Source of the DNA: Gautieria morchelliformis
Taxonomy: Eukaryota > Basidiomycota > Agaricomycetes > Gomphales > Gomphaceae
Length of the DNA: 64,000 nt
Assembly (NCBI GenBank): GCA_015179125.1
Contig: WHVA01000396.1
Location: 1 to 64,000 of the forward strand
Direction of reading: 5' to 3'
Shown here piece by piece: positions 6,531 to 61,982 of the stretch. Position numbers and translations under genes: made by a program. Under the pieces are notes generated by a model that saw nothing but the letters and a program-made list of their open reading frames with translations, did no database searches and had not been told where the DNA came from. The number at the start of each line of letters is the position of its first letter. Position 1 is the stretch's first letter.

Positions 6531-6535
6531 GACAG

Positions 6536-30668: not shown

Positions 30669-30982
30669 CTCGTCGGAGTGCTTTGTTAACACTCCAACAT
30701 TAACCCTTCAGGAGGAAACCCAATACGAGATAGGCGTCAACTGGAAAGTGAAGACCTAGTTTAGTTAAAATCGAATCAATATAATTCGATTATGAATACG
30801 TTGGTACCGGTAATTGATTTTAGTAGTGACCTTGAGAGTTGTACGGAAAGTGCGATGTAGAAGGTCTACACTGCGTAGCCGGCCATTTCGTTGAGAGAAA
30901 CTTATCAACAGTAATGTACATGCGTTAGGTGTCCACTTGTCTAAATAACACCACTAACCAATGATCGTCGAAAGGGCCTACT

Positions 30983-36250: not shown

Positions 36251-36474
36251 CACGATCAGCTTCTTTTAATCTTCCCTTTTCTTTCTTTCTTTCTTCTTTT
36301 TAAGTTCCGGCTTTGTCCCTCGAGACCCATGTGACGTGGTAGGCTCCACGCAGGCCACGGAACCCTCCTTGTTGCAAGAGCTTATCAACAGTAATGTACA
36401 CACGATAGGGCAGGGTCCCTTTCCTCTGTCCAAGTAATACCACCAATCAGTGCTAGTCGTGGAAACGGTCTACT

Positions 36475-39420: not shown

Positions 39421-39565
39421 TGTTGCAGCGACGTTGTCACATGACGCGATCAACCGCTTAGTCAGACATCGTGCTGTACAGTACCCTAAGTTCGGAGTGT
39501 AGAAGCCTTACTTGCTTCTTCCTCCGAACTCAGATCGGAGTAATATACCTGTACTGCGTTTAACA
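39421..39565 (+). repeat. 5' LTR of the copia element
   Basis: 145 bp, TGTTGCAGCG to GTTTAACA. Followed immediately by the tRNA-Met half-molecule primer site. Confidence 0.85.
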
Positions 39566-39609
39566 GGTTATGGGCCCCGTGCTCTAAATCGAAGAAGAAG
39601 TCGCAAACC

Positions 39610-42600
39610 ATGTCAGATTCAGAAACCGAGCACCGCACTAGCAGCGTAAGACTCACGAGTTCCAACTACAATGTATGGGCTATCACACTGCAAGGAAAAC
39701 TCATGACCGTAAACGCGTGGCGAATAGTCACTGAGGAATTCAGAAGACCGACCGACGCAGTAGAAGTATCGAAATGGCTATTAAAAAGAGAGGAGGCAGC
39801 TGGAATCCTACTCAAATCTCTCTCGCCAACGCAGTACGTCCACGTCGAAGGCGCGATGGACGATCCTATTGAGATGTGGAAGAGATTGAGAGCCGCACAC
39901 AGATCACAGGTAGCGAACAGCCGCTTCCACACGATACAGAAGCTGTTGAGCATACGAAAAGACAACACGGAATCACTCACTGATTATATCACCCGCATCA
40001 ACGCGGCCACCAACGACCTCATAGCACTCACACCGAGCACGCTTACCGTCCGAAACATCGTGGATGAAGTTGGCATCCACGCTGCGATCACAGGACTCGA
40101 CCAAACGGAATACGGAGCATTCACCTCCTCCCTTCTCTTAATCAGCACCCTTGACCGCGCGACCGTATCCACAGCTTTCCGCAACGAGGACCTGAAGCAC
40201 CAGACGTCCTCGGCCTCCACAACAGCCGCCCTCGCCACAGCTCGAGGAAAGAAGTCCCCCATCCTGACGTGTACCGCGTGCAGGAAGCGGGGGCACTCAG
40301 TGGATCGCTGTTGGATCGCTCATCCGGAACTTAAACCTGCGCGATGGGGGGAGGAGAACGAGAAAAAGAGAAATGCGCACCAGGCAGTGGAAAACGGGCA
40401 AGACGGAGCGGCGCAGGAACTTGCTGGAAATGCGAGTCTGCACTCCTCATCCCTGCCCATTTCCACTAGCGATGCTAACACATGCTGGAACACAGACACG
40501 GGCGCTACAAGCCATATGACCCCACACCGACATTGGCTTCGGGACTACGAACCCTATCGCGTGCCCATCCACCTCGCAACCAATGAGATCGTGTATTCAG
40601 TTGGAAAGGGGCGCATCTTGTTTACACCCATCATAAATGGGAAGCCAGCGCAAAGTATCGTCTTGTCAGAAGTCTTACATGTACCCATGCTTCAAAATAA
40701 TCTACTCGCGGTCCTTCGCCTTACCACGCACCACGGTTTTGTCGTCAATATTATAAAAGATCGCATTTCTTTCATGCAGGATGGAAATCTGCGGTTTTGT
40801 GCGACAGTACGAAACGGAACAGGCTTCCTTGTCGGGGACACGATCCCAATCCTGGAGTTCGCCCTAACGATGCTGTGGACAGATTGTTGCTGCACAAACG
40901 GTTAGCTCACATCGGATTGGCGTGCCTGGACAAGCTCCTTGAAAACGGTATGGCAAAAGGAGTAAACGTGAGCTCGAACGATAAAATTCCCAAAATTTGC
41001 GAACCTTGTATTGCTGCAAAACAGCATCGCGACCCCTTCCCAGGGGCCAGTAACAACCGATCCTCCAAACCGCTCAACCTCATCGTATCTGACATACACG
41101 GACCTCTCCCAGTCAGGACGTCATCCAGACACAGATACTGGGTAACCTTCACAGACAGCTGCACAAGATACAGATGCGTATACCTCTTGAAAAACAAAGG
41201 GCGAGGTCTTCGACGCCTATCTATCCTACGAGGCGCTGGCGGAAAACCAACTGAACCTGAGAGTAAGGAGATTCAGAGATGACAAAGGAGGCGAATACAT
41301 TGGCAGAAAATGGGATGAACACTTCCGACGCTGGGGAATAATTCATGAGCACACAACTAAAGGCACCCCACAACAGAACGGGATCTCCGAGCGTACCAAT
41401 CGCACCCTCATCGAAGGAACGATAGCGCTCCTGCATCAAGCTCGTCTCCCAGCTTCAATGTGGGGGGATGCTCTACGACTACTAGTTCGGATAATCAATG
41501 CTACACCAACGTCCGCATTACCAGACATGACCCCATATGAGGCCTGGCATGGCCAAAAGCCAGACCTTGGGATGTTGCGCGTATTTGGCTGCACTGCCTA
41601 TGTCCACATACAGAAGGATGAGAGAAATGGACTAGAACCACGATCTCAGAAATGTATCTATCTTGGATTCGAGGATGGCTACAAAGGGTGGCGCTGCCTT
41701 GACCCTACCACAAAGCGTTATATCATATCACGCGACATCATTTTCGATGAATCGGAGTTCCCGGGCCTCTCCACCAAAGCCTCCGACTACAGCTCACTCC
41801 TACCCACACCCGCTCCATTGGAGAGAAATGTCGTCACCCTGCCAGATGCACCAGACCGAAATCCCGGAGATGATGCGCTCGCTCCCGAGCCCGATCCTGC
41901 TCCTGACCCTCCGGGGGACCACCAGCCTGACCCAACTCCAGACCCAGTCATCCCTGCTCCACCTGAACCAGACCAGGCCCTGCCTCTACCGCCAGCACCT
42001 GCACCCATCGATCAACCCCGTTGCTCGAGCAGAGCCATCTCATGGCTGGACTACCGGTGCCTTAATGACCCGTTCCTGAGACCGAGGCCACCACCTGATC
42101 ACGACGACCCGGGCCCTGAAGGGGGCGCAGCAGCCAGTGCATCAATTATTCAGGCCTTGGAATACATATACAATGAGTCTGACATTGCTAGAGCGTATAC
42201 AATCTCACCAAACGAAGTTGAACTTGCATTCAATGCCACAATAAAAGACGACCGTGTCCCAAAGACATTCGCCGAAGCAATGCAGCGCCCTGATGCACCA
42301 ATATGGAGAAGCTCAACTGACGCAGAGATCCAAGTGCTCCTGAACAACGGCACTTGGGAGTTAGTATGGCTACCACCCGGAGAGAAAGCCATAGGCTCAC
42401 GATGGGTTTTCCGAATCAAACTCAACTCTGATGGAACATTAGACAAATACAAGAGTCGCCTAGTTGCAAAGGGTTATAGGCAACGGCCAGGCATTGACTA
42501 CGACGAGGTTTTTGCTCCAACGGCACGATGGGCGGCACTACGCACCATACTAGCTCAAGGAGCGCTTCAGGGAGCGTACATTGAATCCATAGACATATCC

Positions 42601-43818
42601 AACGCTTACCTGAATGGAATACTGAGCGACAATTCCCAGATATACATGGAGCAACCAGAAGGCTACCATCAGGGGGGTGCGGACTGGGTATGCAAGCTGA
42701 AGAGGGGACTCTACGGACTGAAACAAAGTGGGAGATTGTGGTACGAGCGACTCGGGACAGCGCTGGAAGGCTTGGGATTCAAGCGCCTCCAATCAGACCC
42801 GAGAATCTACGTCTGGACAAGTGATGAGACCAAAATCATCATACCCGTATTTGTTGATGACTTGACACTGGTATCGAACTCAAAGTCAGAACTCGACCAA
42901 GTGAAGAAGGGATTGGCCAAGGTATTCAAACTGAGGGATCTAGGTGAAATAACGTCGCTGTTAGGTGTGGAGGTGGATTACAACCGCTCACAGAGAACGC
43001 TGAAGCTCACACAAAAGCAGTACATCGGAGAAATTCTCGAGAGATTCCACATGTCAGACTGCCGCCCTGTGACCACGCCGATGTCCCCAGGATTGAACCT
43101 AAATGCAACCATGGGACCATCAACGCCTGAGGAGATAGAAGAGATGTGAGGCCTACCTTATTTGAATGCAGTCGGAGCGTTGAACTATTTGGCCATCGCG
43201 ACCCGCCCCGACATTGCCTACGCCATCGGATGCCTCGCACAGTTCAACTCGAATCCGGGCCCAGCTCACTGGGCAGCAGTAAAACATCTCCTTCGTTATC
43301 TAAAAGGGACCACTGATTTGGCACTCACTTTTGCGCCAAACAACTCTACCGAAGCGTTCCAGACATGGACAGACGCCGATCATGGAGGAAACCCGGATAA
43401 CGGACAGTCGACCTCAGGATTCCTCGCTAAAATCGGAACCGGAGCTGTCAGTTGGGCCAGCAAACTACAGAACATCGTTACTCTATCCACGACGGAAGCC
43501 GAGTTCGTAGCAGCGGCATTAACTGGAACCGAGATCGTCTGGCTGTGCACTTTATTGGATGAGCTCGGCTCAACAATAAATAAACCGTCTCACCTCTGTA
43601 TCGACAACCACTCCCCTCTATCTGTTGCCAAGAATCCGGAGCATCACGGACGAATGAAGCACCTCGATCTACGGTACTTCTGGCTGCGGGAGAAAGTTGC
43701 GCATAAAATCATCCAAATGGATTACGTACCTACAAAGGACATGCCGGCGGACCTATTAACGAAGGCCTTGCCTCGCGAATCAGTGGAACGGCATCGCCGA
43801 GCCATGGGACTATTCTAG
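39610..43818 (+). pseudogene. gag-pol: Copia Gag-Pol polyprotein with two frameshifts and one stop
   Basis: Domains run in copia order. Gag is at 39610-40250, with a zinc knuckle CTACRKRGHSVDRC. Protease has NTDTGATSHM (about 40490). The GAG-pre-integrase/HHCC zinc finger has HKRLAHIG and CEPCIAAKQH. Integrase has aspartates in IVSDIHGP and FRDDKGGEY, and the glutamate in QQNGISERTNR. Reverse transcriptase has YLNGILSD, GLYGLKQSGRLWY and the catalytic FVDD in place of the usual YVDD. RNase H has TDADHGG, STTEAEFVA and CIDNHSPL. The frame changes near 40850 and near 41188 (an extra G in GGGCGAGG), and a TGA lies at 43147-43149. The protein is otherwise well kept, so inactivation is recent. Confidence 0.85.
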
Positions 43819-44457: not shown

Positions 44458-47400
44458 ATGGCTGCAGCTCTGGGATTAGCAGGTAAGTCCCCGACAACCT
44501 ATCAGAACCGTGGATAGGGTGCTAACCACTCCAATCAGCGAACGTCATTGCCGTTCTCCAGTTCACTGGAGCGACTATCAGTGCATGCTACAACTATGGG
44601 ATTAGCGTCAAGAACACATCAAGGGACAAGCAAAGGATCCTTGATCAGCTGTTTGGACTCCAAAAAGTGCTCGATAGTATTCGTAGACTGGTAGAAGAGG
44701 ACGAGACAGCAGCATCCTCCCGATTGCCGTCTCTGAATGAGCAACTTCTTCGTTGCCGTGACGAGCTGCAGAGTCTCAATACGGTCCTTGCAAAGGGACT
44801 TGGAGGCAAAGGCCGCATGCAAGCGTTGATATGGCCTCTAAAGGAGAGCGAGGTGCACAAGACTCTCGACAAGCTAGGCAAGCTCCAAGATTTGCTGACA
44901 ACGGCCATGGACGTAGATCAGACGTACGTTGCACCCGCTAGCTTCCCCTCCGTGCTGATCAACCAGACAGACGCTTGACACTGAAGATAGATAGTGGGGT
45001 CGTGAAGATAGGTAGCGGGGTTGAAGCGTTGCAGGCACGGACTGCTGAGCTTGGAGAGGCTATGGAACAGGCGAAATTGCGTACGTCACATATCTCCAGT
45101 TCCCCTTAAGGTGGGACGCTGATTCAGACGGCCTTTTTATGTAGAAGAACATCGTCAGAAGATTGATAAATGGCTGGCAGCTCCTGATCACGAATCAAAG
45201 GATAGAAATGCTCGAAGCATGCGACGGGAGGAAACCGGGTCATGGGTTCTTGAGGAAGAACGCTTCCGGGAGTGGCGGGAGGCCCCCCACTCTTTCCTAT
45301 GGCTTCATGGTATACGTGCGTGCCCATTAAGCTGCTGAAGTTTGTAATCGCCGCTGATGCACTGCCGCAGCTGGTGCTGGGAAAACTATATTATGGTATG
45401 TGCATCACATCTGTCTGTGTCTTCCCTATCACACTAAGGTGTGATTGTGTTAGCTCAACCATCATCGAAGAACTCTCACTTCACTGCCGTTCCGACCCCT
45501 CTCTGGCAATCGCATTTTTCTATTTTGGTTTTAACAGCAGCAGGAAAGACACACTGTCAGACGCCGTCCTTCGATCTCTGCTGAAACAATTATCCGGTCA
45601 ATGTACAGCCATCCCCAACACCCTGGATATCCTATGTTCTGAGAGTGTTGTTGCAAACCGATCGCCGGCTCATGGGCAGCTGCTATCCACATTGAAGTCC
45701 GTTATTGGGCACTTTCGTGCGGTATATATCGTGTTTGATGCGCTTGACGAGTGTCCAGAGCGATCCACGTTTCTGAAAGTGGTCAAAGAGATACATGCTT
45801 GGAGGGTGGATGGGTTACACCTGCTGGCAACGAGTAGAAAAGAGGGTGACATCGAGAGGGTGCTGAAGGGCTTGGTGTCTCATGAGGTGTCCATGAACGA
45901 GAGTCTTGTCGACCCTGACATCAAAGTCCATATTTCCAGGACACTTGAGGAGGACATTGAGTTTAGCATGTGCTCAGAAGATGAGAAGGAAATGGTCAAG
46001 ACTACCTTGATGAATGGTGCGCACGGAATGTAGGTGTCATTCGACCTGCTTTGAAGTAGTTACTGACAGAAAGGAAAGGTTTCGATGGGTTGTTTGTCAG
46101 CTGGATGCACTGCGGAAGTGCCGTTCTCCGGCTGCACTTGAGAGAGCACTCACATGTCTACCAAAGACGCTATATGAGACGTATGATCGAATTCTGGAAG
46201 CCATCGACGAGGACGATAGACGGGATGCTCTGAGCTTGCTTCAGTGGCTGGCATTCCTTGTCGGCACATTATCACCAGATGAGGCTGTGGATGTGATTGC
46301 TACTGATGCTGATGCAAAAGGTGGACCTCTATTTGACCGCCGGCGGCGGCTTCATGATCCACGAGATATCCTCAGCATATGTTCCAGTTTGGTGACCATT
46401 TCTGTGCCAGGTGCAACATCTTCGGACATCGAGGAGACAGATGATAACACTCAAGCAGGAGAGATCAGATTGGCACACTTCTCCGTCAAAGAATATCTGA
46501 TTTCGGAACATTTGGGGAATAGCGCTGCCCAGGTTTCATATTTTCACTTTAATGAACAGATGGCACATGCGTTCATTGCGAAGACATGTCTTGCATACCT
46601 CATGCAGTTCGACCAGGCTAATGTTATAAGCCAAAGTACAATCAGCTCATATCCATTATCTCGTTATGCGGCAAAGTACTGGATATTTCATGCTCAGTCT
46701 GATCCAGCTGGTGACAATGATCTACATGAACTAGGCATGGCCCTCCTGGAACCTATGGGTGCTATTTATGTTAACTGGCTGAGGCTTTATCATCAATATG
46801 CAGGATCTCAAGAGGCTGAGGGCTCACCTCTCTATTATGCAGCTGAAGCTGGACTGGAAAGGGTGTGCCAAAGCTTGTTGAATCATGGGTTGGAAGTTGA
46901 TGCACCAGGAGGGCTCTACTACACTCCACTGCAGGTAGCAGCAGCATGTGGTCATGATACTATTGTTGAGCTGCTCCTAGAGAAGGGTGCAGAGCTTGGG
47001 TGTGCACTACCAGCAGCGGCATACAATGGTCATGATATGACTGTACTGCTGCTCCTTGAGGAGGGTGCAGATCCGAACACCATAGGACCTTATGGGAGTG
47101 CGCTGCAGGCGGCCGCAAGTAATGGTCAAGATACAACTGTACTGCTGCTCCTAGAGAAGGGCATGGATGTGAATGGCCAAGAAGAAGGAGGGCATGGGAG
47201 TGCACTGGCGGCAGCGGCGGCTCATGGTCATGATACTACTGTACTCCTGCTCCTAGAGAATGGCGCAGAGGTGAATGCTCATGGGGGACAGTATGGGTAT
47301 GCACTGGAGGTGGCGGCATTATGGGGCCATGAGATGATGGTTCGGCTGTTCTTGGAGAAGGGCACAGATATGCATGCTCATGGAGGAAAGTTTGGGAGTG

Positions 47401-49427
47401 CGCTGCAGGCGGTGGCATATAATGGACATGATACAATTGTTCAGCTCCTCCTAGACATGGGTGCTGATGTCAAAGCTCAAGGCGGAGTGTATGGTGGTGC
47501 ACTGCAGGCGGCAGTAGTGGGTGGGCATGATAAACTTGTCTCATTGCTCCTGGAGGCCGCGGCGGCAGTCCCCAACGGGCCGAACACCGTGCGGCCAGGG
47601 ATGAAGCTGGTGCGTTGCTGGCCCATTGCTAGCCCTTTCCCCATCTATCCACCTCACCTCATTGGCAACAGGGTGCAGGCTGGGTTGTGGCCTTCAGTAA
47701 GGATGTGCCTCACCGCCAAATAGAGGTGGACTTGTTTCATACTCTAGCAAAGCGTGAGCGCAGGTGAGTTGTGGTGGAGCTTTGGCATTCTGATGATGAC
47801 TTGTTTTTGGTTTCATTTATCCCTCACTCATACTCCTGTATTTGCATTTCCTCCCAGCTTGGTACAGTGTGTCTGCTTCTCAGCTGACGGGAGGTACCTC
47901 GCAACTGGGTGCAGTGGATCGGTGGAAATATATGAGACGACCACCGGGGCAAGGTCATGGGGAGCAATTGCCTCTTCTTTCACTTGGATAATACACATTG
48001 ATGGGCTCCTTGGCACCAGTATCCTCATTGACGACACTGCTACACCCAGTCTCTGGATCACGAGCGTGTGCTTTAGCCCCAACGGGAAGCTTCTGGCCAC
48101 GGGCGCGGCCGATTACAAAATTAGAGTGCGTGTTCGTCATGTTATTTGCTGAAAACCTTCATTTATTTCCTGGCCTACTCCTTGATCCCGTTCTATTCCC
48201 ACAATGCATGGACCATCTGTTCTCCCTCAACTGCCCACTTACCTCTCAACCCACACATATCCCTTCACCTGTCACCGTCAGATATGGGATATTTCAGACA
48301 AGCCCACCCTCACCATCTTTGAGGGTCATCACCGGTGGCTCTCATCCCTGGATTTTTCGCACGATGGCAGTCTCATCGTGTCCGGCTCCGACGACAGCAC
48401 CGTGCGTATCTGGGATATGGAGACCGGGGAGCACAAGATGTTGTCGATTATGACACCTTCTGATGTGAGTCTTCTTGTCGCTTATGGTCGCGTGTCGCAT
48501 TCTGATGCGAGTTGTGCTTGTGGGCGATGTTGATGGCTTGGTATGCTGTTTTGTGTGGGTTGTGATGTTCGTATATGTAGATAGATGGGCGTGTAAGCGG
48601 CGTAAGCTCTGTCGCCATCTCCCCCGATGGGCATCTTGTCGCTGCCGGCTATTACGACGCCACTGTGCGCCTATGGGATATCCAAACAGGGCAGCTCCTC
48701 AACCACCTCATGGGCCACAGCAGCCAGATTTTGAGCGTGGCATTCACACCTGATGGAAACGGCCTCATCAGCGGAAGCATGTCCGGGGAGGTGAAGCGTT
48801 GGGATTTGGGACTATTGCTAAGGACTGTGCAACGAGGGGCGCCGTTGAAGCAGTCGTATGAAGTGGATGGAGAAGGCGTGGGCTCACCAGCAAAAGAGGA
48901 GAGCGGGCAGAACGAAGGTGTGTATGTGTGGATGGTTGAGTTTATCGGACATACGGTATGTAACAGGACAGTCTGTTGGCCTCTCTTGTTGCTTTCTGTT
49001 GCATGCTTTCGGAACTCGTAAATATTGACAACTTATGGATCTTGATGCTCATGATTGTGAATGTAGCGTGGAGTGCGCTCCGTCGCAGTGTCACACGACA
49101 ACCAGTGGGTCGTGTCCGGTTCGTATGACCGATCCGTGCGGTTCTGGGACCTGCGCACGGGGGAAGCGCAGCTTGTACTTCATGGCGATAGGGGTTACGG
49201 TATGTCCCAGCGCGTATGCATGCAGGCGTGTAGCTCATTTCTCATTGCACCATGTGTGCATGCATGCACGCATATGCAGTTAAATGTGTCGACCTGAGCC
49301 CGACGGGGGGCATGCTCGCCACAAGCTACTCTGACGGCTCCGTGAGATTATGTGCGTGCCTCTCACTCGTTCATACACTGTACCCATGAGAGTTTAACTC
49401 GCAGGGAGTTACGCAACACTACAATGA
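44458..49427 (+). CDS. STAND/NLR-type receptor A: Helo-like N, NACHT, ankyrin, Tup1-type WD40; 1322 aa, 14 exons
   Basis: Exons: 44458-44482, 44539-44923, 44971-45080, 45145-45315, 45371-45395, 45454-46029, 46079-47609, 47672-47763, 47858-48125, 48282-48464, 48581-48955, 49067-49199, 49280-49351, 49405-49427. Their sum, 3969 nt, is 1323 codons with the stop. Residues 1-140 match the fungal STAND N-terminal domain ([15 protein letters not shown]). The NACHT P-loop GIPGAGKT (about 229-236) is assembled from two exons. Walker B-like VFDALDEC lies near 333, and the winged-helix end has [15 protein letters not shown]. Ankyrin repeats span about 678-930. From about 945 the sequence follows Tup1: [51 protein letters not shown], seven blades, ending RLWSYATLQ. 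By family, a cytoplasmic oligomerising sensor triggering a defence or incompatibility reaction. The ANK-to-WD40 link needs the 62-bp intron 47610-47671; otherwise the frame stops at 47723. Confidence 0.85.
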
Positions 49428-50023
49428 CAGTACTGGAGAGCATATAACCTTGGATCAGTGGCTGTCTCTCTTCATGATCACTTCTGTTCATACTGGTTTG
49501 TCTGCCAGAACGAATGGCTGATTTCTGCACTATTTGCTGCCTCGTCGAGTCGTCCAACCTCGCCCCGAAGGTATTCTACCCTGGGTTTGAGCACGACACA
49601 TCCGGATGAGACAAGGAAACTAAGAATCACGCCATACTTGCCCTCGTTTTACTTGCTGCCACCCGGACTAAATTTGGTAGCCGACCCGGAAAACTCTGCT
49701 TCAAGTCGTGTGTGTTCGATCTGTAGTCCAGTTCCCCGCGCTGCAATTCTTTGATTCATGTTCGTCCACATGGGTACGGCCTGCTTCACGAGCTTGTTCA
49801 AGATTGTCAATTTCGATTTTAGCAACGTCATACCTGCTGAGACGTTATGTTCGGACTCGACGTATACCATCGTTCCTGTCGCAGGGACCTGGGCTCGAGG
49901 GGAGTCGGTCCGAGAAATCGACTGACTGAGGCGGGAACGCCGCACAAGAAATTCATGACAATGCTGACACTTCATCCGATGGAGGTCATGTTCTAGTGAT
50001 TCTCGGGATGCCGCACTCTCCCC
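49428..50023. other. Downstream region of NACHT gene A, shared with copy B
   Basis: Collinear with 61983-62585. Frames in this region are not conserved between copies. It may include the 3' UTR. Confidence 0.5.
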
Positions 50024-50038
50024 TCTAGTCGCAAGAGC

Positions 50039-50776
50039 TTGAGGGCTCACGCCATCGACCATGAGACGGCAGAGGCCCTGAACAAACAGGTGCAGGCTGC
50101 GCTGCACCGAAGTACGCTGACGCGCCTCAAGCACGATCAGCTGGCCTCGCAGCTTGACAACGCCGCCACCGCCCTAATGGCAATCGGCAAGGAACTCCAC
50201 CAAGCGGAGGAGATCAGGCTGCAAGATGCAACCACGCTGGAGGACGTCCAGAAAGCACTCCGCCCACGCGGGGAACGTGACGCAACGTGTCCGAGCTCGC
50301 GACAGTCCGCAGCTAACGAACGCAGTTGCGACGCGAGCCGAAAGGAGCAAGACAAGCAGCAAATGCCGCTGCCAGCCGTCCCGGTCGAACAGGACGTAAG
50401 GTTCGGAAACGAGCCTCAGGAACAACTGGCTGCCCCAATGGACAGCCGTAAAACGATCCAACAGATCGTTAGGGATCAGGTCGCCTCAGGGCCTGACTCT
50501 GAAACCACGACCGAGAGCTTAGAGCTCGAAGTCGCACACTGGCAGCGTAAAGAAGCTGCAGCCACGCGCCGCCACACACGGGCACTCGAGCTACTAGCGA
50601 AGAACGCTGAAGAAACGGTGGCCCACAGCCACACCGCGCAGCTACCAGACGAGCAGCTCATGCAAGCCGTACAAGACGCACGGCAAGCGCGCGCAACCTA
50701 CAACAGCAGGCTACGGATCTGCAACGCGGGACTGACCAGGGACACAAGGCACAAAACGCCCCCGGAAGAGATGTGA
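50039..50776 (+). pseudogene. Gag-like coiled-coil frame in the gypsy-derived insert
   Basis: An open frame of 245 codons encodes a helical, Gln/Ala/Glu-rich protein (HETAEALNKQVQAALHRS; LELEVAHWQRKEAAATRRH). It resembles the coiled-coil N-terminal or ORF1-like proteins of basidiomycete elements but has no zinc knuckle. Its true start is unclear because the insert edge lies only 15 bp upstream, so it is probably truncated. No host function is implied. Confidence 0.45.
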
Positions 50777-50855
50777 AGATGACATGCTGTCCCAAGTCAT
50801 GTGGGGGCAGACCTGTTGTCAGAGGGCCCACAGTCGAAACTGTTCCAGAAGAGAG

Positions 50856-51129
50856 TGTAGATCAAGAGTAGGTTCCCATACAGCACACCCGCTCCCTACT
50901 TGAGGAAGGAGACAGGACCTTTGTCATCTTTGTGAATGAGAGTCCTGAAATGATTGGCGCAGGCTGGACTGTATCCCAACAGCTTGCTGAACGGGCCAGC
51001 AAGTCTGCACCAGTCAGATCCTTTGAGGACCTTGTCCCCAAACCATACCAGGAGTTCAAAGATGTGTTTTCTAAGGAGTCATTTGACCAACTGCCTCCTC
51101 GAAAGCCCTGGGACCATGCAATTGAGCTC
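50856..51129 (+). pseudogene. pol: Ty3/gypsy pol fragment (protease-RT junction)
   Basis: The frame encodes FVNESPEMIGAGWTVSQQLAE, then SFEDLVPKPYQEFKDVF and PPRKPWDHAIELT. This is the conserved linker just upstream of reverse transcriptase in basidiomycete gypsy elements. It breaks off at about 51130, where LTR-like sequence begins. No RT catalytic motif remains. Confidence 0.7.
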
Positions 51130-51139
51130 ACTACTTTTG

Positions 51140-51660
51140 TGTTGCGCCCCTGATGAACTATTGTTCTAAGTATTTCGGATTTGACTTCCAGACGTCGGAG
51201 AAGGTGGAAGTCGGGAAGAGAGTGCTGAAGGTCGGAGGTCGGAGGACAGAGGTCAGAAGAGGCGGAAGACAGAGTATCGAAGGCAGAGAGAGAGACAGAG
51301 CTTGCAAGACTCGCTGTGCTAAGAACAGGTGTTACGACTGCCCCGATCAACCATCTCCGCCACCTCTGCATATCCTCCGCACCACCTCCGTACCACCCCC
51401 GACTCTATTCCGACATCCGCAACTTCCGCAACCCTCTACCTCGACCCCTTGTTCTTTCAGTACCCCTGGCCACCTCCAGATACCGGCCCCCGTACTCGAC
51501 CCTGAACACAGCAAGATACCATTTCCGTAGTTCCGCTTCTCCCGATGCCTATTGTACTTACTCGCCTTGTTCTTTGCCATTGTACTTACCCTACCTGTGT
51601 GGGATCCTGCTTTGCTGGTCAATTAGGAGAAATTCCATGTATTTTCGATATAGTGACCTT
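51140..51660. repeat. Rearranged LTR pieces joined in inverted orientation
   Basis: 51143-51329 parallels 4722-4890 of the nested solo LTR in the same direction (TTGCGCCCC.GATGAACTAT; GACTCGCTGTGCTAAGAACA). 51330-51620 is the reverse complement of 5103-5370 (TGTTACGACTGCCCCGATC at the junction). This is a head-to-head fusion of LTR ends. Confidence 0.65.
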
Positions 51661-51982
51661 AAAATATAGCATACAGGCTTTGCTATCATTGGGGATGATT
51701 TATTTAAACTTCCTCTAATTTCCTATGGCCCTTCGCAAGGTGACATGTCTCTTCCCCACATTTATGCGAGCTCTTGGACAACCCCGGCGTTGTGACCGAA
51801 TGGTGCGCACATTTTCTTCTGCGGAAGAGTGTAACAGCATCTGTCTGTTTCATATATCACATCTCCTACATCTCGTGCGGCTCTTTCGACCCACAAACAT
51901 CCTCATCCCATCCACTTGGGCCGCGTCCAAGTTCCCCGTGTGGGAGGGCTCGTGGATTTCGAGGATTCGAGGCTGCACTTGG

Positions 51983-52570
51983 CGTGCTGTGCGTGGAGTA
52001 GATCTTCCATCTTACTGCTACGCTCAAGCTTCAGATTATCCTCTGCCCAAAAGCACAAAAGAAACACGCCGCACCCTTAGACCCCCGGAAAATCATGGAC
52101 TCACCGCGACGAACATAGACCGAGCCCACTGTTGGCGAGCAGGCGCCATTGAGTCAGATAAAAGGATGCGGCGCTGGTACAGTGACGGTAGAATTGTAGT
52201 CCACGAATTGGTATCGACACCTCCGACTAAAATTCACTGGAGACTCTATGCTCCTAAGCACACCAATTACCCACTTAATTATGGCAACCCAAGCTGACAT
52301 CCGTTACCACCGACCGATGATTGCGATCTGATTTCGCATGATTGTCACACTGGCACCACCACGGGCCCTTCTCAAGGTTGAGTATCCTCGGCATTTGAAA
52401 TGAATGAAGATCGTATGTACGTTCCCAATAAGCCATGGAATATATAGTTAAGTAGGGCTCGGTACATAAACCTGTACTGGATTAGACAAATAGCTATTGC
52501 GAAGCATGGAAGGTCCGACATAGGTCAAGATAGCAACGGATGTTGAAAAATCAACAAAATAAAGATCTCA
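51983..52570. other. No gene recognised
   Basis: Frames here show no motif. The left edge is where similarity to block B ends, because B is cut by the second copia element. Confidence 0.3.
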
Positions 52571-52574
52571 ACTA

Positions 52575-54650
52575 AATATCTCAAAAGCCTCCTCCCATAT
52601 TGGAGCAATGCTTCCATGGTTGTCAATTTCAATCCATCGCCGATCAGGACCGACATCAGTCCCATCAAAATCGAATGAGCGATTCCATCCGAGTCCCACA
52701 GCAGCGAGCTTGCAAAAATTAGACCTGACAGTGAGCCTCATTAACATATATGCTATAGGCAGATGTATTAGATTGGACATACGGAAGTGTGCAAACAGCT
52801 GCAGCAGGTTTAATTAGCCCATCTTGGGCTCCAGCACCTAGCTCGGATGTCCAAGCTCCGGAGAGAAGTGCCCGATCCACGATCGCACCCCTCGTTTCTC
52901 TCACCCTGTCTTCCTGCGTACGATTGTTCTATTCGGCCTGTACATATTCCAATGCTGGCGCAAGACTACGCAGCTCAGAATCCTTGCTCGTACGGAGCTC
53001 GTATACCACTGGGTTGAGGGTCTCATTCCCCTGCACCACGCTATTATTTGTAACGAAAAATTGAGTGAATTCAGATGCTGCGGATGGGGAGTCGGACGCA
53101 AGGTAAATGAGCAGCGGGAAAGATGGTGATCCGTCTGAGGACAGATTTTGCATTCGAGCGTGCGTTTTCAATACAGCATCCACGTATTCGGCTGTGGGGA
53201 CGTGGACATTGGGCAACCGTTGATAACGCCACGACATGGCTTTACGATCTCCTCGCCGAATGTGCGTTGAAACGTACGCTCGGTCTGTGGAATCTGGTAG
53301 TCCTGAAGAGGATTTTGAATGCGGATCGATACAGCAGCAGGAAGGAGCACACTTAGAATTGGAAGTGCGAGTACGGCAAGTTCGTCTCCACCGCGCTGGA
53401 TGAGTTTCTCATTCGCAGTGCTGGGTCGTATGAACTGCGCAAAGGACTCGGAAGAACGATAGAAAACGGGTTTCTTTCTCTCTGTGGTTATACCTAATAA
53501 GTAAAGCAGTTAACGTAAGAAGTTGGGACGACGTGCGAGGCTCATGGATCTTCAAACTCGTCCTGAAAGTGCTCACCCATGTGATGAAAAGCACTGCAAG
53601 CCGATATAATCTTGTTGTAAATGAGTATCCTCACTACCGATGGGTTTGCATCCACGACATACCCAATGACTGTCCAACAATTTGAGCTTGTAATAGCATA
53701 TTCGAATTGTGATGACAACAAACGCTGACCGTGCTGTTCTGGGACAGGGAACTAGTTCTACTCCCGCGACGAGAGTCAGAGGAGTTAGTACTCATGTAAG
53801 TGGTTACGCACCCTCGGGTGGTGGTGGTGCGCACCCGGGTTCTGGTCCAGGCTGCGTTTTACAAAACGACATGAAATCTATCTAACGTCCCCTATTGCAC
53901 CGTTCATTGTTTACGAAGACGGTGCGATTTTGCTGCCGTGAGCAACTCATCGTGAGTGACTTATATGGCAACGATCAATGTAAAAGCCTACCTCGCGTGC
54001 AAGTATGGCGACCTGCGGTAATATAGCAAGATCTGCCATGAGACCAACCGAGCCGTCCAACAGGTATGTAATCGTAGACGTGCATGTACTTTGAGAGGGG
54101 CTTTGTTTCTGGGCATGGATGTTAATAAGCAGAGAGTAAGATACATATTGAGTGGTCTCAATAGTTTGTGAAGAACGTCCAGCTCGGCTCCTGGGCTAGC
54201 TGACCAATACGACGTATACACTCGCATGCGTGGGTCATTTGCAGCACTCGTCGAGGTACTGTTCCGTGGTCAATGGGTACGACGTATAGCAGGACGCAGC
54301 ATAACCGATTACTGTGGAGCTGTTGAACCGTGTCTTGCTTTCCTCGTCCAGAGACTCAAAGGCGGTAGCCGTTGCATTGACTCCCATGTAATCCAGTTTA
54401 GTAAAGTGTCTGATCGTCGAATCGAGAAAAGCAGTAAGAAAGCCACAGCAGACCCCAGATTCAAGCCGACGGGCAAGCGATCCTGCAACAATCTCTCTCT
54501 AACCATGCGCCATATGCGGCGCTTCCTGCTACCACTCCGTCGCCGATCACTGCCCATAGGGAAGGATTCCAAAGTAGAGCCATGGAGTAAAGGGTGACTC
54601 TGACTTTGGAACTCTATTTCGTCAAGGTTTCCGACATCTTCACTCTGCAA
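52575..54650 (-). pseudogene. Possible glycosyltransferase (GT-like type II membrane protein), decayed or unresolved
   Basis: Minus-strand pieces run from 54650 (a basic N-terminus, then LNLGSAVAFLLLFSI as a possible signal anchor) to 52575. The C-terminal exons show VPTAEYVDAVLKTHARM, FPLLIYLASDSPSAASEF and a VRETRGAIVDRALLSGAW block. LAAVGLGWNRSF and RRWIEIDNHGSIAPIWE follow. This order resembles fungal fucosyltransferase-like Golgi proteins. Frames change near 53240 and the middle exons (53500-54240) contain stops, so I call it a pseudogene with low confidence. Unrecognised introns could explain part of this. Confidence 0.4.
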
Positions 54651-55380
54651 TATCTTCGTTGACTAGGATGGCCGGAGTCGAGCGCCGCGAACGACCCTCC
54701 TCTGCATTTGCTGTTAGGCGCGAGTATGGAGTCGTAGGGTGAGTCCCGCCGACTCTGAATCGCCAAAGAGCTGTGTTCGGGGATAGGCAGGTTGACGGTT
54801 GTGGGGGCTTTGGGGGCGTGTCGTGACTTCTGAGGCCCAGTGGAATTTGAATGCTGCGCGTAGCTGTAAAGACCGAAAAGGAAATACAAACTCGGAGTTA
54901 AATTTGTAGGCACCGGTGGCGCACCGATGCACGAAAATCTATTTTTACAAAACTCAGTTGCCTGTTCAGAGCCACCACCAACCGATGCCGGGTGCCTGGC
55001 GCAGCGCTAAAAACTAAGAAGACTTCTGCTTGGCAACATCCTAGATCGACTTGTCGCATGCATTTCTGTCACTCGCATCTGCATTCTGCCACTGCCACCC
55101 GATTTCTCGTCTCTGCGCGTCTGCGCATGCCCTGCAGAATTTTGCACTCACCACTTGGGTTTCCATTCCTGCGTGTTTCTGCACTGGACACCGATTTTAC
55201 CTCACCAGCACACAATTTTCGCTATTGCACGCACACTCCTCGACCACACGCTTGGAGCTTGGAGACTCTAGGTTTTCATGCGCTCGTTTTTGCATGGGCA
55301 TTTTTGATTTGTGCTGATGCACTGCCACTCAATTTTCTACACCTGCACACGCTCTCGTATTTCCCGATTCTGCGCGTGCA
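54651..55380. other. No gene recognised
   Basis: C/T-rich sequence with many CTGCAT and CTGCGC motifs in 55030-55380. The plus-strand frame 54992-55414 crosses into block B and looks like compositional noise. Confidence 0.3.
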
Positions 55381-57029
55381 TGCTCGAACGGCTAGCCAGT
55401 GCAACGATCGATAACGTTGCGTTGCGACCGGGTCAGCTCCTTGTTTGTGAAGGTCATGGACGCAGTGAAGGCCCAAGGCCAGGTACCCTACGGGGACACC
55501 ACCCTCGCAAAACACCGAACACACACAATCTTCATGGCCCGCGGCTCCATTTGAACAGGGCATCCCTGAGGAATGGTATGCCGTTGGTCCCTCCGACGGG
55601 CCACGGCAAGCAGAGACAGCGGAGATGCGTGGACGCAGGGCAAGATTACGAGTCTTGGCAAGACTCATAATCCACGAATACATGTACCTAGCAGCCCGAT
55701 TATACACCAGGTACTTCCAAACGATGCATACAACGTCCGTTCCATTACACGTTCCTGTACATAGTTAGACTCAACGAGCGCAGACCCCGGGCTGAAGATA
55801 GCATGCATCATACCTGTACGTACCCACAAGAAAAGGTGCAAAACATGAAATAGCGAGCGTTAGCCAATACCGTAGGGTGTTCGAAACATCGCGTGCCCAG
55901 ATAATGCCCGTGGGACGTCCAGGTCAGTCCGTAGGTCGAAGCTTGACGCCATGTCGAGCAACTCCTGTGCGTGCGTCAGATGCGATTCGCATGAGGGACG
56001 TGGCGTGGAATACTCACTCGATATTGCCGAGCGAGAACCTCGTAAGATGCGCGCGTCGTACCTATGGATCGCTCAATGAGTAGGCTCCACGCGGCGGTTA
56101 ACCAGGCGCCCGGAATGCATTTCTACATGCTCCTGGAACTTTCGTTCTTTCCGTCCACAACTCGCCAGGCTAACACGTTCCCACTTCCATTGTGGGATTC
56201 GGACTCAAGCATGCGTCCCCATTTGTTGAGCTCCTCGGGCGCGGCGCGCGAGAGCTCAGTTGGTGGAAGAGTAAGCGCAGTTGTGCCGGTACCGGTGACG
56301 AAGCGGGGGGCAGGGATGAGTCGACTTGTGGTGGCTTGGAGAGTTGGGACAATGGCAAGAGAAGAAGGCGATCGCTGGCTGCAGATGGTGCCATAAGTGA
56401 CCCAATCGTTGAATTAAATTGATATAGGGCGCTAACAACAATCCGATAGACACTGGCCAACACAGCTACCTCCTCGGGAGTGAGGTCGCTCGCTGTATAT
56501 AGGGCTAAGAGGTGAGATAGGTTTCGCGCGTGTGAGCTCTACACCTTCCTACGCATCCTCGGTGTCTAGCTGTACGGAGGTAGAGCGAACATGAAACGAA
56601 TCGGGATCTTCCTCTTCGGATCGCTGCGCCAGGGGAGACTAGGGCTTGGGCCGGATGGAACTGGACGGGTACTAGGAATGGAGACGGCATTTGCGATGCT
56701 GAACGATTTTGTGAGGTGAACGAGAAGGTGGCTTAGGGGGGGTCAAAGGAGGTTTTCCGTGTGGACACATGCGATTACGAGTGTAAGGCAAAAAGGTAGA
56801 TGCTTCAGAAGTTTGGTACGAGCTCATCACTACGAAGTGTCTCTGATCGGGGTCATCAGGAGCAGAGGGAGTTGTTGGGTCTTCAAGGGTGGCGCCATCA
56901 CGTCTGTGGGTCCATGTGGACACAATGGCTTCTCCGAACCTGTGTGTCTGGCACATGGCTGTCCACGATAGACGCTGCGATAAGAGGCTGCAACGCTGTT
57001 CTACTTAGTACTCTGACCAACTCGACACC
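55381..57029. other. Upstream region of NACHT gene B
   Basis: Frames at 55311-56396 are not conserved as protein in block A (indels shift them), so no gene is called. About 500 bp (around 56095-56495) is missing from copy A. The promoter of the NACHT gene presumably lies near its right end. Confidence 0.4.
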
Positions 57030-60000
57030 ATGGCTGACGATCTGGGATTAACAGGTAAGGCCCCGACAACCTATCAGAACCGTGGGTAGGGGGCTAACCA
57101 CTCCAATCAGCGAGCGTCATTGCCGTTCTCCAGCTCACTGGAATGACTATCAATGCTTGCTACAACTATGGGATTAGCGTCAAGAACGCATCAAGGGACA
57201 AGCAAAGGATCCTTGATCAGCTGTTTGGGCTCCAAAAAGTCCTTGATAGTATTCGTCGACTAGTAGAAGAGGACGAGACAGCAGCATCCTCCCGATTACC
57301 GGCTCTGAATGAGCAACTTCTTCGTTGCCGTGACGAGCTGCAGAGTCTCAATACGGCCCTTGCAAAGGGACTTGGAGGCAAAGGCCGCATGCAAGCGTTG
57401 ATATGGCCTCTAAAGGAGAGCGAGGTGCACAAGGCTCTCGGAAAGCTAGGCAAGCTCCAAGATTTGCTGACTACGGCCATGGACGTAGATCAGACGTACG
57501 TTGCACCCGCTACCTTCCCCTCCGTGCTAATGATCCAGATAGACGCTTGACACTGAAGATAGACAGCGGGGTCGAAGCGTTGCAGGCACGGATGGAACAG
57601 GCAAAATTGGGTACGTCGCATATGACCAGTTCCCTTTAAGGTGGGACGCTGATTCAGACGGCCTTTTTATGTAGAAGAACATCGTCAGAAGATCTATGAA
57701 TGGCTGGCAGCTCCTGATCACGAATCAAAGGATAGAAATGCTCGAAGCATGCGACGGGAGGAAACCGGGTCATGGTTTCTTGAGGAAGAACGCTTCCGGG
57801 AGTGGCGAGAGGCCCCTCACTCTTTCCTATGGCTTCACGGTATACGTGCGTGCGCTTTAAGCTGCTGAAGTTTGTAATCGCCGCTGATGCAATGCCGCAG
57901 CTGGTGCTGGGAAAACTATATTATGGTATGTGCATCACATCTGTCTGTGTCTTCCCTTTCACACTAAGGTGTGACTGCGTTAGCTCAACCATCATCGAAG
58001 AACTCTCACTTCACTGCCGTTCCGACCCCTCTCTAGCAATCGCATTTTTCTATTTTGATTTTAACAACAGCAGCAAGGACACACTGTCAGACGCCGTCCT
58101 TCGATCTCTGCTGAAACAATTATCTGCACAATGTACAGCCATCCCCAACACCCTGGATACCCTATGCTCTGAGAGTGTTGCTGCAAACCGATCGCCGGCT
58201 CATGGACAGCTGCTATCCACATTAAAATCCTTTATTGGGCCCTTTCGTGCGGTATATATCGTGTTTGATGCGCTTGACGAGTGTCCGGAGCGATCCACGT
58301 TTCTGAAAGTGGTCAAAGAGATCCATGCTTGGAGGGTGGATGGATTACACCTGCTGGCAACAAGTCGAAGAGAGGGCGACATTGAGAGGGTGCTGAAAGG
58401 CTTGGTGTCACATGAGGTGTCCATGAACGAGAGTCTCATCGACCCTGACATCAAAGTCCATATTTCCAGGACACTTCTTGAGGACATTGAGTTTAGCATG
58501 TGCTCGGAAGATGAGAAGGAAATGGTTAAGACTACCTTGATGAAAGGTGCGCATGGAATGTAAGTGGTCATTTCACCTGCTTCAAAGTAGTCACTGACAG
58601 AAACGAAAGGTTTCGATGGGTCGTTTGTCAGCTGGATGCACTGCGGAAGTGCCGTTCTCCGGCTGCACTTGAGAGAGCACTCACACGTCTACCAAAGACG
58701 CTATACGAGACGTACGATCGAATTCTGGAAGCCATCGACGAGGAGGATAGACGGGATGCTCTGAGCTTGCTTCAGTGGCTGGCATTCCTAGTCGGCACAT
58801 TATCACCAGATGAGGCTGTGGATGTGATCGCTACGGATGCTGATGCAAAAGGTGGACCTCTATTTGACCGGCGGCGGCGGCTTCGGGATCCACAGGATAT
58901 CCTCAGCATATGTTCCAGTTTGGTGACCATTTCTATGCCAGATGCAACATCATCAGAGATCGAGGAGACAGATGATAACACTGAACCAGGAGAGATTAGA
59001 TTGGCCCACTTCTCTGTCAAAGAATATCTGATTTCAGAACACCTGCAGTATAGTGAGGCCCAGCTCTCATATTTTCACTTTAATGAACAAATGGCACATG
59101 TGTTCATTGCGAAGACATGTCTGGCATACCTGCTGCAGTTCAACCAGGATAACATCATAAGCCAGAGTACAATCAGGGCATATCCACTATCTCATTATGC
59201 AGCAAAGTACTGGATCTTTCATGCTCAGTTGGATCCAGCTGGTGGTAATGATCTATATGAACTAGGCATGGCCCTCCTGGAACCTATGAGTGCTGTTTAT
59301 GTGAACTGGCTGAGGCTTTATCGTCAATATACGTCAGAGGGAGAGGCCAGAGGCTCGCCTCTCTATTATGCAGCTGAAGCTGGACTGGAAAGGGTGTGCC
59401 AAAGCATGTTGAATCATGGGTTGGAAGTTGATGCACCAGGAGGGCTCTACTACACTCCACTGCAGGTAGCGGCAGCATGTGGTCATGATACTATTATTGA
59501 GCTGCTCCTACAGAGGGGCGCGGATGTGAATGCCCAAGGAGGAGAGCTTGGGTGTGCACTACCAGCAGCGGCGTACAATGGTCATGATACGACTGTACTG
59601 CTGCTCCTTGAGAAGGGTGCAGAGCCGAACACCAGAGGAACTGCTGGGAGTGCACTGCAGGCGGCGGCAAGTAATGGTCAAGATACAACTGTACTGCTGC
59701 TCCTAGAGAAGGGCATGGATGTGAATGGCCAAGAAGGAGGGCATGGGAGTGCACTGCCCGCAGCGGCGGCTCATGGTCATGATATGACTGTACTCCTGCT
59801 CCTAGAGAAGGGCGCAGAGGTGAATGCTCATGGGGGACAATATGGGTATGCACTGGAGGTGGCAGCATTATGGGGCCATGATATGATGGTTCGGCTGCTC
59901 TTGGAGAAGGGCGCAGATATGCATGCTCATGGAGGAGAGTTTGGGAGTGCGCTGCAGGCGGCGACATATAATGGACATCATACAATTGTTCAGCTCCTCC

Positions 60001-61982
60001 TAGACATGGGTGCCGACGTAGAAGCTCAAGGCGGAGTGTATGGTGGTGCACTGCAGGCGGCAGTAGTGGGTGGCCATGATAAGCTTGTCTCATTGCTCCT
60101 GGAGGCGGCGGCGGCAGTCCCTAACAAGAACCTGAACATGCTGCGGCCAGAGATGAAGCTGGTGCGTTGCTGGCCCATTGCTAGCCCTTTCCCCATCTAT
60201 CCACCTCACCTCATTGGCAACAGGGTGCAGGCTGGGTTGTGGCCTTCAGTAAGGATGTGCCTCACCGCCAAATAGAGGTGGACTTGCTTCATACTCTAGT
60301 AGAGCGTGAGTACAGGTGAGTTGTGGTGGAGCTTTGGGGTTCTGGTGATGGCTTGGTTTTTGCTTTTATTTATCCCTCACTCATACTCCCGTATTCCAAT
60401 TCCCTCCCAGCCCTGTCGAGTGTGTCTCCTTCTCAGCCGACGGGAGGTACCTGGCAACTGGGTGCAGGAGAGCGGCGGAAATATATGAGACAACCACGGG
60501 TGCAAGGTCATGGGGAGCAATTGCCTCTTCTTTCACTTGGATAATACACATTGATGAGCCCCGTGGCACCAGTATCCTCAGTGACGACACTGCTACATCT
60601 GGCCATCTCTGGATCAACAGCATGTGCTTTAGCCCCAATGGGAAGCTCCTGGCGACAGGCGCTACCGATTACAAGATTAGAGTGCGTGTTCGTCATGTTA
60701 TTTGCTGAAATCCTTCATTTATTTCCTGGCCTACTCCTTGATCCCGTTCTATTCCCACAATGCATGGACCATCTGTTCTCCCTCAACTGCCCACTTCCCT
60801 CTCAACCCCCACATATCCCTTTGCCCCTCACTGTCAGATATGGGATATTTCAGACAGGTCCATCCTCACCATATTTGAGGGTCATCACCGGTGGCTCTCA
60901 TCCCTGGATTTTTCGCCCAATGGCAGTCTCCTCGTGTCCGGCTCCGAGGACAGCACCGTGCGTATCTGGGACATGGAGACCGGGGAGCACAAGACGTTGT
61001 CGATTATGACACCTTCTGATGTGAGTCTTCTTGTCGCTTATGGTCGCGTGTCGCATGCTGATGGGAGTGTGCTTGTGGGTGGTGTTCATGGCTTGGTATG
61101 CTGTTTTGTGTGGGTTGTGATATTCGTATATGTAGGTAGATGAGCGCGTAAGCGGCGTAAGCTCTGTCGCCATCTCCCCCGATGGGCATCTTGTCGCTGC
61201 CGGCTATTACGATGCCACTGTGCGCCTATGGGATATCCAAACAGGGCAGCTCCTCGACCGCCTCGTGGGCCACAGCAGCCAGATTTTGAGCGTGGCTTTC
61301 ACTCCTGACGGAAACGGCCTCATCAGCGGAAGCATGTCTGGGGAGGTGAAGCGTTGGGATTTGGGACTATTGCTAAGGACTGCGCAACGAGGGGTGTCGT
61401 TGAAGCAGTTGTATGAAGTGGATGGAGAAGATGTGGGCTCGGCAGCAATAGAGGAGAGTGGGCGGAACAAAGGTGTGTGTGCATGCGTGGTTGAGTTTAT
61501 CGGACATACGGTATGTAACAGGATAGTCTGTTTGCCTCTCTTGTTGTATTTTGGTGCATGCTTTCTGAACTCGTGAATGTTGACAACTTGTGGGTCTTGG
61601 TGCTCATGATCGTGAATGTAGCGTGGAGTGTGCTCCGTCGCAGTGTCACACGACAACCAGTGGGTCGTGTCCGGTTCGTTTGACCGATCCGTGCGGTTCT
61701 GGGACCTGCGCACGGGGGAAGCGCAGCTTGTACTTCATGGCCATAGGGGTTACGGTATGTCCCAGCGCGTATGCATGCAGGCGTGTAGCTCATTTCTCGT
61801 TGAACCATGTCTGCATGCATGCACGCATATGCAGTTGAATGTGTCGCCCTGAGCCCGACGGGGGGCATGCTCGCCACAAGCTACTCTGACGGCTCCGTGA
61901 GATTATGTGCGCCTCTCTCACCCCTTCATACACAGTACTCATGAGGGTTTAACTCGCAGGGACTTACGCAACACTACAATGA
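57030..61982 (+). CDS. STAND/NLR-type receptor B: Helo-like N, NACHT, ankyrin, Tup1-type WD40; 1316 aa, 14 exons
   Basis: Exons: 57030-57054, 57111-57495, 57543-57610, 57675-57845, 57901-57925, 57984-58559, 58610-60161, 60224-60315, 60411-60681, 60838-61020, 61136-61510, 61622-61754, 61835-61906, 61960-61982. The sum is 3951 nt, 1317 codons with the stop. Every intron position matches gene A. Versus A it lacks 14 codons in exon 3 (the helix before the NACHT domain) and has seven more codons in exon 7, including an extra ADVNAQGG segment between ankyrin units. The P-loop [16 protein letters not shown] and all seven Tup1-like blades are kept. Ankyrin units carry near-identical [13 protein letters not shown] cores, a pattern seen in fast-evolving fungal NLR repeats. 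No lesion found. Possible roles are non-self recognition or guarding the corepressor pathway; both are inference. Confidence 0.85.

Follow-up and report, generated by a model that had tools for sequence, protein, structure and literature searches.

Fungal NOD-like receptors (NLRs) with extra C-terminal domains are already known, including receptors with a CHK-2 kinase as a putative decoy. In HET-E, HET-D and HNWD of Podospora anserina a NACHT receptor ends in a WD40 propeller (excerpts of PMC1805685 and PMC2873952), and the WD40 units of HET-E/HNWD are highly alike internally and reshuffle (excerpt of PMC4986451). A housekeeping domain stands C-terminal to a complete NLR in the CHK-2-kinase NACHT NLRs of Sordariales (excerpt of PMC12258605) and in plant NLRs with integrated domains (excerpt of PMC4759884). 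The DNA considered here, called the window, comprises 64,000 nucleotides of Gautieria morchelliformis (contig WHVA01000396.1, assembly GCA_015179125.1). It holds two genes, A and B, of a multigene family in which an ankyrin-NACHT NLR bears the 3' part of a Tup1 gene, in A and B seven WD40 exons and the intron preceding them. All of the protein ahead of the propeller resembles the fungal NLRs built of HeLo-like, NACHT and ankyrin parts (excerpt of PMC4986451); unlike the window genes, those receptors end in ankyrin repeats, as do the loci L041 and L042 as far as fetched.

The window family shares with HET-E and HNWD the NACHT receptor with a C-terminal propeller, but its seven Tup1 blades are distinct from one another and divided among seven exons, it varies by substitutions and small insertions or deletions, and it carries ankyrin repeats in between. 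WD40 repeats of high internal identity, as in HNWD, were absent in a coarse test with a 200-nt minimum, in which the ankyrin part was the sole within-gene repeat family. Like the CHK-2-kinase NLRs, the family apparently stems from one integration; unlike these and the plant receptors, its donor is Tup1, it occupies dozens of places in one assembly, and the donor's partner-binding face is not kept. With Tup1 (yeast 1erj; Cag1 and TupA of Coprinopsis, excerpt of PMC5200907) it has in common the pre-propeller segment, seven blades in register and the C-terminus, and its intron positions are those of the Tup1-type genes in the same genome. Unlike Tup1, it lacks Tup_N and the Tup1 top face and has NLR domains in front. 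The reading favoured here, and judged rather probable, is that of a fungal NLR with a propeller captured from Tup1 as its C-terminal sensor, in which a Tup1-derived scaffold would carry a diversifying ligand-binding face.

The two genes consist of the following parts:

44458..45080 (44458-44482, 44539-44923, 44971-45080), + strand: gene A exons 1-3, weakly HeLo-like (PF17111) N-terminal domain (gene model, Pfam)
45145..46029 (45145-45315, 45371-45395, 45454-46029), + strand: gene A exons 4-6, NACHT/NPHP3_N core with P-loop GIPGAGKT and VFDALDE (gene model, Pfam, translation)
46079..47609, + strand: gene A exon 7, remaining NACHT region followed by the ankyrin repeats (about 46820-47560) up to the junction donor (gene model, Pfam)
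47610..47671, + strand: gene A junction intron, 62 nt, phase 0, at the site of Tup1's own intron before 'GSDW' (gene model, Tup1 comparison)
47672..49427 (47672-47763, 47858-48125, 48282-48464, 48581-48955, 49067-49199, 49280-49351, 49405-49427), + strand: gene A exons 8-14, Tup1-derived pre-propeller segment and seven-bladed WD40 propeller (gene model, Tup1 comparison)
47960..48019, + strand: former intron of 60 nt within gene A exon 9, donor lost (spliced in models of relatives and Tup1)
57030..57610 (57030-57054, 57111-57495, 57543-57610), + strand: gene B exons 1-3, N-terminal domain (gene model, spliced alignment)
57675..58559 (57675-57845, 57901-57925, 57984-58559), + strand: gene B exons 4-6, NACHT (gene model, spliced alignment)
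58610..60161, + strand: gene B exon 7, remaining NACHT region and ankyrin repeats (about 59350-60115) (gene model, spliced alignment)
60162..60223, + strand: gene B junction intron, 62 nt, phase 0 (gene model, spliced alignment)
60224..61982 (60224-60315, 60411-60681, 60838-61020, 61136-61510, 61622-61754, 61835-61906, 61960-61982), + strand: gene B exons 8-14, Tup1-derived propeller (gene model, Tup1 comparison)
60513..60572, + strand: former intron of 60 nt within gene B exon 9 (spliced in models of relatives and Tup1)

Splicing of the 14 exons of gene A (44458-49427, 1322 amino acids) and the 14 of gene B (57030-61982, 1316 amino acids) gives in each case an open frame with a length divisible by three and a single terminal stop. 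This confirms the original prediction, as do the two junction introns, which lie where it had placed them and keep the frame. Every intron has GT..AG borders. The genes differ in length through small insertions or deletions, including seven residues in one ankyrin repeat. A purpose-written spliced aligner with the gene A protein as query was used for gene B and the relatives, and it placed 12 of the 13 gene B introns as in the first model. The acceptor of intron 2 differed and the aligner's version was adopted; more than one in-frame acceptor could serve this intron (44970 or 44994 in A, 57542 or 57566 in B). Introns that the aligner modelled in the ankyrin part are mostly extra repeats and were rejected as introns.

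From N- to C-terminus both genes encode a weakly HeLo-like domain, NACHT, ankyrin repeats and a WD40 domain of seven blades. The NACHT-type P-loop nucleoside triphosphatase that characterises fungal NLRs among the signal transduction ATPases with numerous domains is present, with 142.7 bits for NPHP3_N (cut-off 24.8), 28.2 bits for NACHT (cut-off 26.7) and the Walker motifs GIPGAGKT and VFDALDE in the translation. The C-terminal superstructure-forming repeats are likewise found, since Pfam matches both ankyrin and WD40. The predicted fusion of domains thus holds for NACHT, ankyrin and WD40; the HeLo-like label is weak in gene A, where PF17111, which we take to be the HeLo-like family, reaches 24.9 bits against a cut-off of 27.2. 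Two of five relatives scanned lie above this cut-off, one lies just below it and two have no match.

Both genes had been described as intact, which is right for their open frames and needs qualification for exon 9, where each holds a former intron of 60 nt. Its GT donor is lost in both and the gene models read through it in frame, while the models of both Tup1-type genes and of all 20 relatives fetched splice the segment out. In A and B it would either add 20 in-frame residues or be spliced from a weak donor. The intron was modelled with a query lacking that segment, which was cut after recurrent stop codons had appeared there in relatives. These stops are only apparent, the site being the ancestral Tup1 intron. 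The propeller of the relatives has eight exons, compared with seven in A and B.

The genome searched is a 122-Mb assembly of 1113 contigs, in which the window's contig is labelled C444. On contig C419 a Tup_N domain is followed by a Tup1 WD40 part (L034). About 6 kb from it lies a second Tup1-type WD40 gene (L038, C419:38500-44500), which has no Tup_N match of its own. Compared with these two genes, the first 25 residues of the fused part correspond to Tup1 GSDWCAVFSKHVPQRRLDVNLVHTL, and its end reads 'VRLWSYATLQ' where Tup1 has 'ARLWSYTTLQ'. Blades 1-7 of A, B, L017 and L024 each score best with the Tup1 blade of the same number (7/7 in all four proteins), and the six introns within the A and B propellers are found at the identical codon and phase in L034 and L038. 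A few propeller introns in some relatives are displaced by one to four codons from the Tup1 positions. The Tup1 genes have two further introns, of which one is modelled in 20/20 fetched relatives (with the donor lost in A and B) and the other in none.

Three features underlie the assignment to Tup1: the pre-propeller segment, the introns and the register of the blades. The register and the introns shared with Tup1-type genes agree with the original prediction of a complete propeller of the Tup1 type rather than an ordinary NLR WD40 array. A generic array was rejected: among the matches listed by a genome-wide protein search, many other WD40 ones, with an identity of some 37-55% to parts of the query, lie in long intronless frames (mostly 450-1000 amino acids), whereas the fused propeller spans seven exons. 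When the propeller was used to search the PDB, the best score went to 2ymu, an internally repeated WD40 protein, and yeast Tup1 (1erj) came twelfth, but this ranking was not used because whole-chain scores sum over repeats.

Tup1 has an intron of its own immediately before 'GSDW', and in the fused genes the junction intron occupies that point, in the same phase. The propeller was therefore probably acquired as genomic DNA, introns included, by fusion. At the junction Tup1 reads '...PSELKKE' before the intron and GSDWCAVFSKHVPQRRLDVNLVHTL after it, and the relative L016 reads '...LPQLKL' before and GSGWVATFSKHVPQRRVDVDLVHTL after. The residues preceding the junction, 'PELK' in many relatives and 'PGMK' in A, resemble 'SELK' of Tup1, a likeness of few residues that is suggestive only. 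Together with the common point and phase of the intron, it places the breakpoint probably in the Tup1 exon ahead of the 'GSDW' intron.

The original prediction concerned a pair of genes, and both are real, but the scale is different. A DNA search with the propeller gave 47 matches, counted as 40 Tup1-like WD40 places in the assembly with A and B included. At least 26 of the 40 have a same-strand NACHT domain no more than 6 kb upstream, and at least 30 have either a NACHT domain so placed or an N-terminal domain within 9.5 kb; these counts come from the coordinates of the NACHT and N-terminal-domain searches and are lower bounds. The remaining ten include a contig end and short fragments. Near-identical places such as L022, L023 and L025 may be haplotype copies. 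The junction intron is present in 20/20 fetched relatives (L014-L033), and several members keep an open frame over the splice junctions: the models of L015, L017, L018, L028 and L031 start at query residue 0-7 and reach its end free of stops and frameshifts, with open ankyrin insertions, and L021 and L024 have open frames with doubtful ankyrin models. L016, L019, L029 and L033 are incomplete within the stretch fetched. Distances between NACHT domains correlate with distances between propellers (Mantel r 0.88, n=14, p 5e-5), also when A, B, L014 and L015 are left out (r 0.75, n=10, p 3e-4). The loci compared have both domains, and near-identical copies were dropped; the two Tup1 genes of this genome were the only outgroup of the propellers. 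By this measure NACHT and propeller have diverged together and are co-inherited.

These results bear on whether each locus might instead be two neighbouring genes, an NLR ending at 47723 or 60275 and a separate truncated copy of Tup1. Read-through of the 62-nt intron does stay open until the stops at those positions in A and B; in the relatives a stop comes 6 to 54 residues on. An ungapped comparison of the opening 75 nt of exon 8 across 16 of 22 loci shows most differences at codon position three of the propeller frame (641, 445 and 1154 at the three positions in turn), an excess that is absent when only the four closest genes are compared (7, 7 and 8). The junction intron in 20/20 relatives and the co-divergence of NACHT and propeller make two separate genes very unlikely, and this candidate, given the least credence of any reading considered here, was rejected on linkage, common junction intron and co-divergence. 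The single genes originally proposed are upheld by the same evidence.

Some related NLRs lack the propeller. A third copy on the window's contig (L037, C444:83400-90500) has two NACHT exons 90-96% identical to those of gene A as well as ankyrin repeats; the 7.1 kb fetched gave no match to the propeller. In a NACHT tree rooted on L041 and L042, which are ankyrin-ended as far as fetched, L037 groups with A and B (support 89) and L039 and L040 group with L028 (support 98). L039 and L040 keep the junction intron, with the Tup1 exon reduced to its first residues. Because these loci group with propeller-bearing genes, at least two losses of the propeller probably followed the fusion. A repeat encoding 'SEHSEC..NNLCE' follows the cut-off Tup1 exon in L040, so a mobile element may have removed that propeller. 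The same repeat ends the window's open reading frames (ORFs) 419-1486 and 6455-6817, which overlap repeats at 1411-1622, 6319-6531 and 9960-10172.

The d-a and b-c loops of WD40 propellers form the top face. In HET-E, positively selected sites of the WD40 domain lie in these loops (excerpt of PMC1805685). Many harmful mutations of Tup1 lie on the top face of its propeller, and the fission-yeast proteins Tup11 and Tup12 show no significant differences there, according to excerpts of PMC2882346. For the window family the top face was taken as six positions per blade, 42 in total and 41 with enough data, picked by their place in the WD40 motif; the two Tup1 genes of this genome served as the reference. 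Among 17 family members, near-identical copies having been dropped, identity to these Tup1 genes is 0.22 on the top face and 0.65 elsewhere, and column entropy is 2.03 bits compared with 0.89 (permutation p 5e-5 for both). The 41 columns of highest entropy include 23 of the top face, where about 5 are expected. The conserved Tup1 face is not kept in the window genes: against L034, gene A is identical at 5/41 top-face positions and gene B at 6/41, and six members other than A at 4-9 of 37-41, compared with 34/41 for L038 and 29/42 for yeast Tup1.

The ratio of nonsynonymous to synonymous rates (dN/dS) on the top face ranges from 0.49 to 2.13 over ten family pairs and is 0.35 between the two Tup1 genes. 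The highest value, for A and B, comes from 11.5 nonsynonymous and 1.5 synonymous differences. Maximum-likelihood estimates of the same ratio (omega) are 1.38 for the top face and 0.48 for the rest in 17 sequences, 2.11 and 0.46 in the five closest genes, and 1.22 and 0.50 in eight others; tested against 1 with kappa on a coarse grid, the top-face value of the 17 sequences has p 0.023. That the top face is more variable than the framework within the family is firm. The comparisons indicate a propeller framework under purifying selection with hypervariable top-face loops, and positive selection on the face is likely, not proven. With positive selection reported in the same two loop types of HET-E, a variable ligand-binding face on a Tup1 scaffold is the simplest reading.

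Several points weigh against a diversifying sensor. The top-face test was framed after the alignment had shown loop differences, and only 18 of the 41 columns with most nonsynonymous differences belong to the top face. In seven disjoint family pairs pooled, the ratio of the proportions of nonsynonymous and synonymous differences (pN/pS) is 0.92 (0.73-1.21) on the top face and 0.46 (0.40-0.52) elsewhere, so relaxed constraint could explain part of the variability. The control is small, the Tup1 pair giving 0.39 (0.10-1.48) and 0.21 (0.13-0.32). A top-face omega above 1 lacks robustness: the five closest genes give p 0.10 and the eight others p 0.30. Stops or frameshifts occur in the models of 9/20 fetched relatives (L014, L020, L022, L023, L025, L026, L027, L030 and L032), the three NLRs without a propeller imply that it is dispensable in some receptors, and the PF17111 match of gene A is weak for a HeLo-like output domain. 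A functionless, decaying relic with a merely relaxed top face would fit the losses, the damaged relatives and the pooled top-face pN/pS near 1. It fits poorly with an omega of 0.46-0.50 over the other 310 codons, with propeller exons that are open in A, B and several relatives, and with variation concentrated in the top loops, and is considered quite improbable.

The original prediction allowed that the propeller may serve as decoy or sensor for effectors or non-self factors directed at Tup1. As stated this finds no support, in that the partner face is almost wholly replaced and strongly variable within the family, and a new ligand-binding surface therefore fits better than a Tup1 look-alike. 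An integrated decoy, a Tup1-mimicking bait through which corepressor-targeting factors would trip the receptor, has its own merits. An NLR with a housekeeping domain of the host at its C-terminus has the form of such a decoy, and here a host domain has indeed been duplicated and fused; beyond the top face its framework is 0.65 identical to Tup1. The AT1G15750 protein is presumably TOPLESS. It is listed, with WD40, among the targets of the effector HARXL21 in an excerpt of PMC4759884, which also has WD40 among plant NLR fusions, and the CHK-2 kinase fused to fungal NACHT NLRs provides a further precedent (excerpt of PMC12258605). However, resemblance to the target at the binding face was not found when the top face was assessed, identity to L034 being as low there as given above, and dozens of divergent copies are unlike copies of a single target. 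A decoy would have to use another face of the propeller, and is regarded as unlikely.

The propeller could also be a signalling graft that draws the receptor to Tup1-Cyc8 or to partners in chromatin, where its activation would influence transcription. Plant corepressors of the TOPLESS family bear on autoimmunity caused by the NLR SNC1 (excerpt of PMC7935258), and Tup1 paralogues in an agaric are nuclear (excerpt of PMC5200907). Against this, the partner face is not conserved, and Tup_N (PF08581), which serves Tup1 self-assembly and Cyc8 binding, gave five matches on contigs C419, C1048 and C393 and none on the window's contig C444. A graft of this kind receives very little credence. The matches on C1048 (L035) and C393 (L036) are Tup_N-like, the latter below the cut-off, and within the 5 kb fetched neither is accompanied by a match to the Tup1 WD40 part.

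If the captured propeller is a sensor, it would no longer work as a corepressor, and its top face would bind a variable putative ligand such as a non-self, parasite or allorecognition factor, with the ankyrin array as a possible second variable surface. By analogy with other NLRs, NACHT would oligomerise upon ligand binding and the HeLo-like N-terminus would be the effector that delivers the output, probably cell death. The chances are about even that a single capture of a Tup1 propeller by an ankyrin NLR gave rise to the whole family at no fewer than 26 NACHT-linked places, with the partner face turned into a hypervariable recognition surface and the result a diversified set of intracellular receptors.

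No title or abstract opening among the best literature matches, which mostly exclude subscription papers, describes a fusion of Tup1 with an NLR. Where Tup1 occurs in excerpts of the fungal NLR literature, it is as an example of WD40 with a structure reference, or in a reference list. The donor gene, the probable fusion point marked by the Tup1 intron and the fate of the captured surface are all readable in one genome, which bears on the origin of fungal NLR sensor domains and on what these sense. If the sensor reading is true, a host propeller can turn into a variable receptor face, a host transcription cofactor has been re-made into diversified intracellular receptors, and the loops carrying specificity are predicted.

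The remainder of the window has some further features. Long ORFs just upstream of gene A (39544-43818) have what we take to be the look of a Copia-type retrotransposon. A duplicate pair at 30944-32407 and 36436-37892, spaced by 5.5 kb, presumably represents 2-oxoglutarate oxygenase genes. At 8274-9216 there is a tandem repeat array that is open in several frames, beside or inside other ORFs which we assume to be gag-like.

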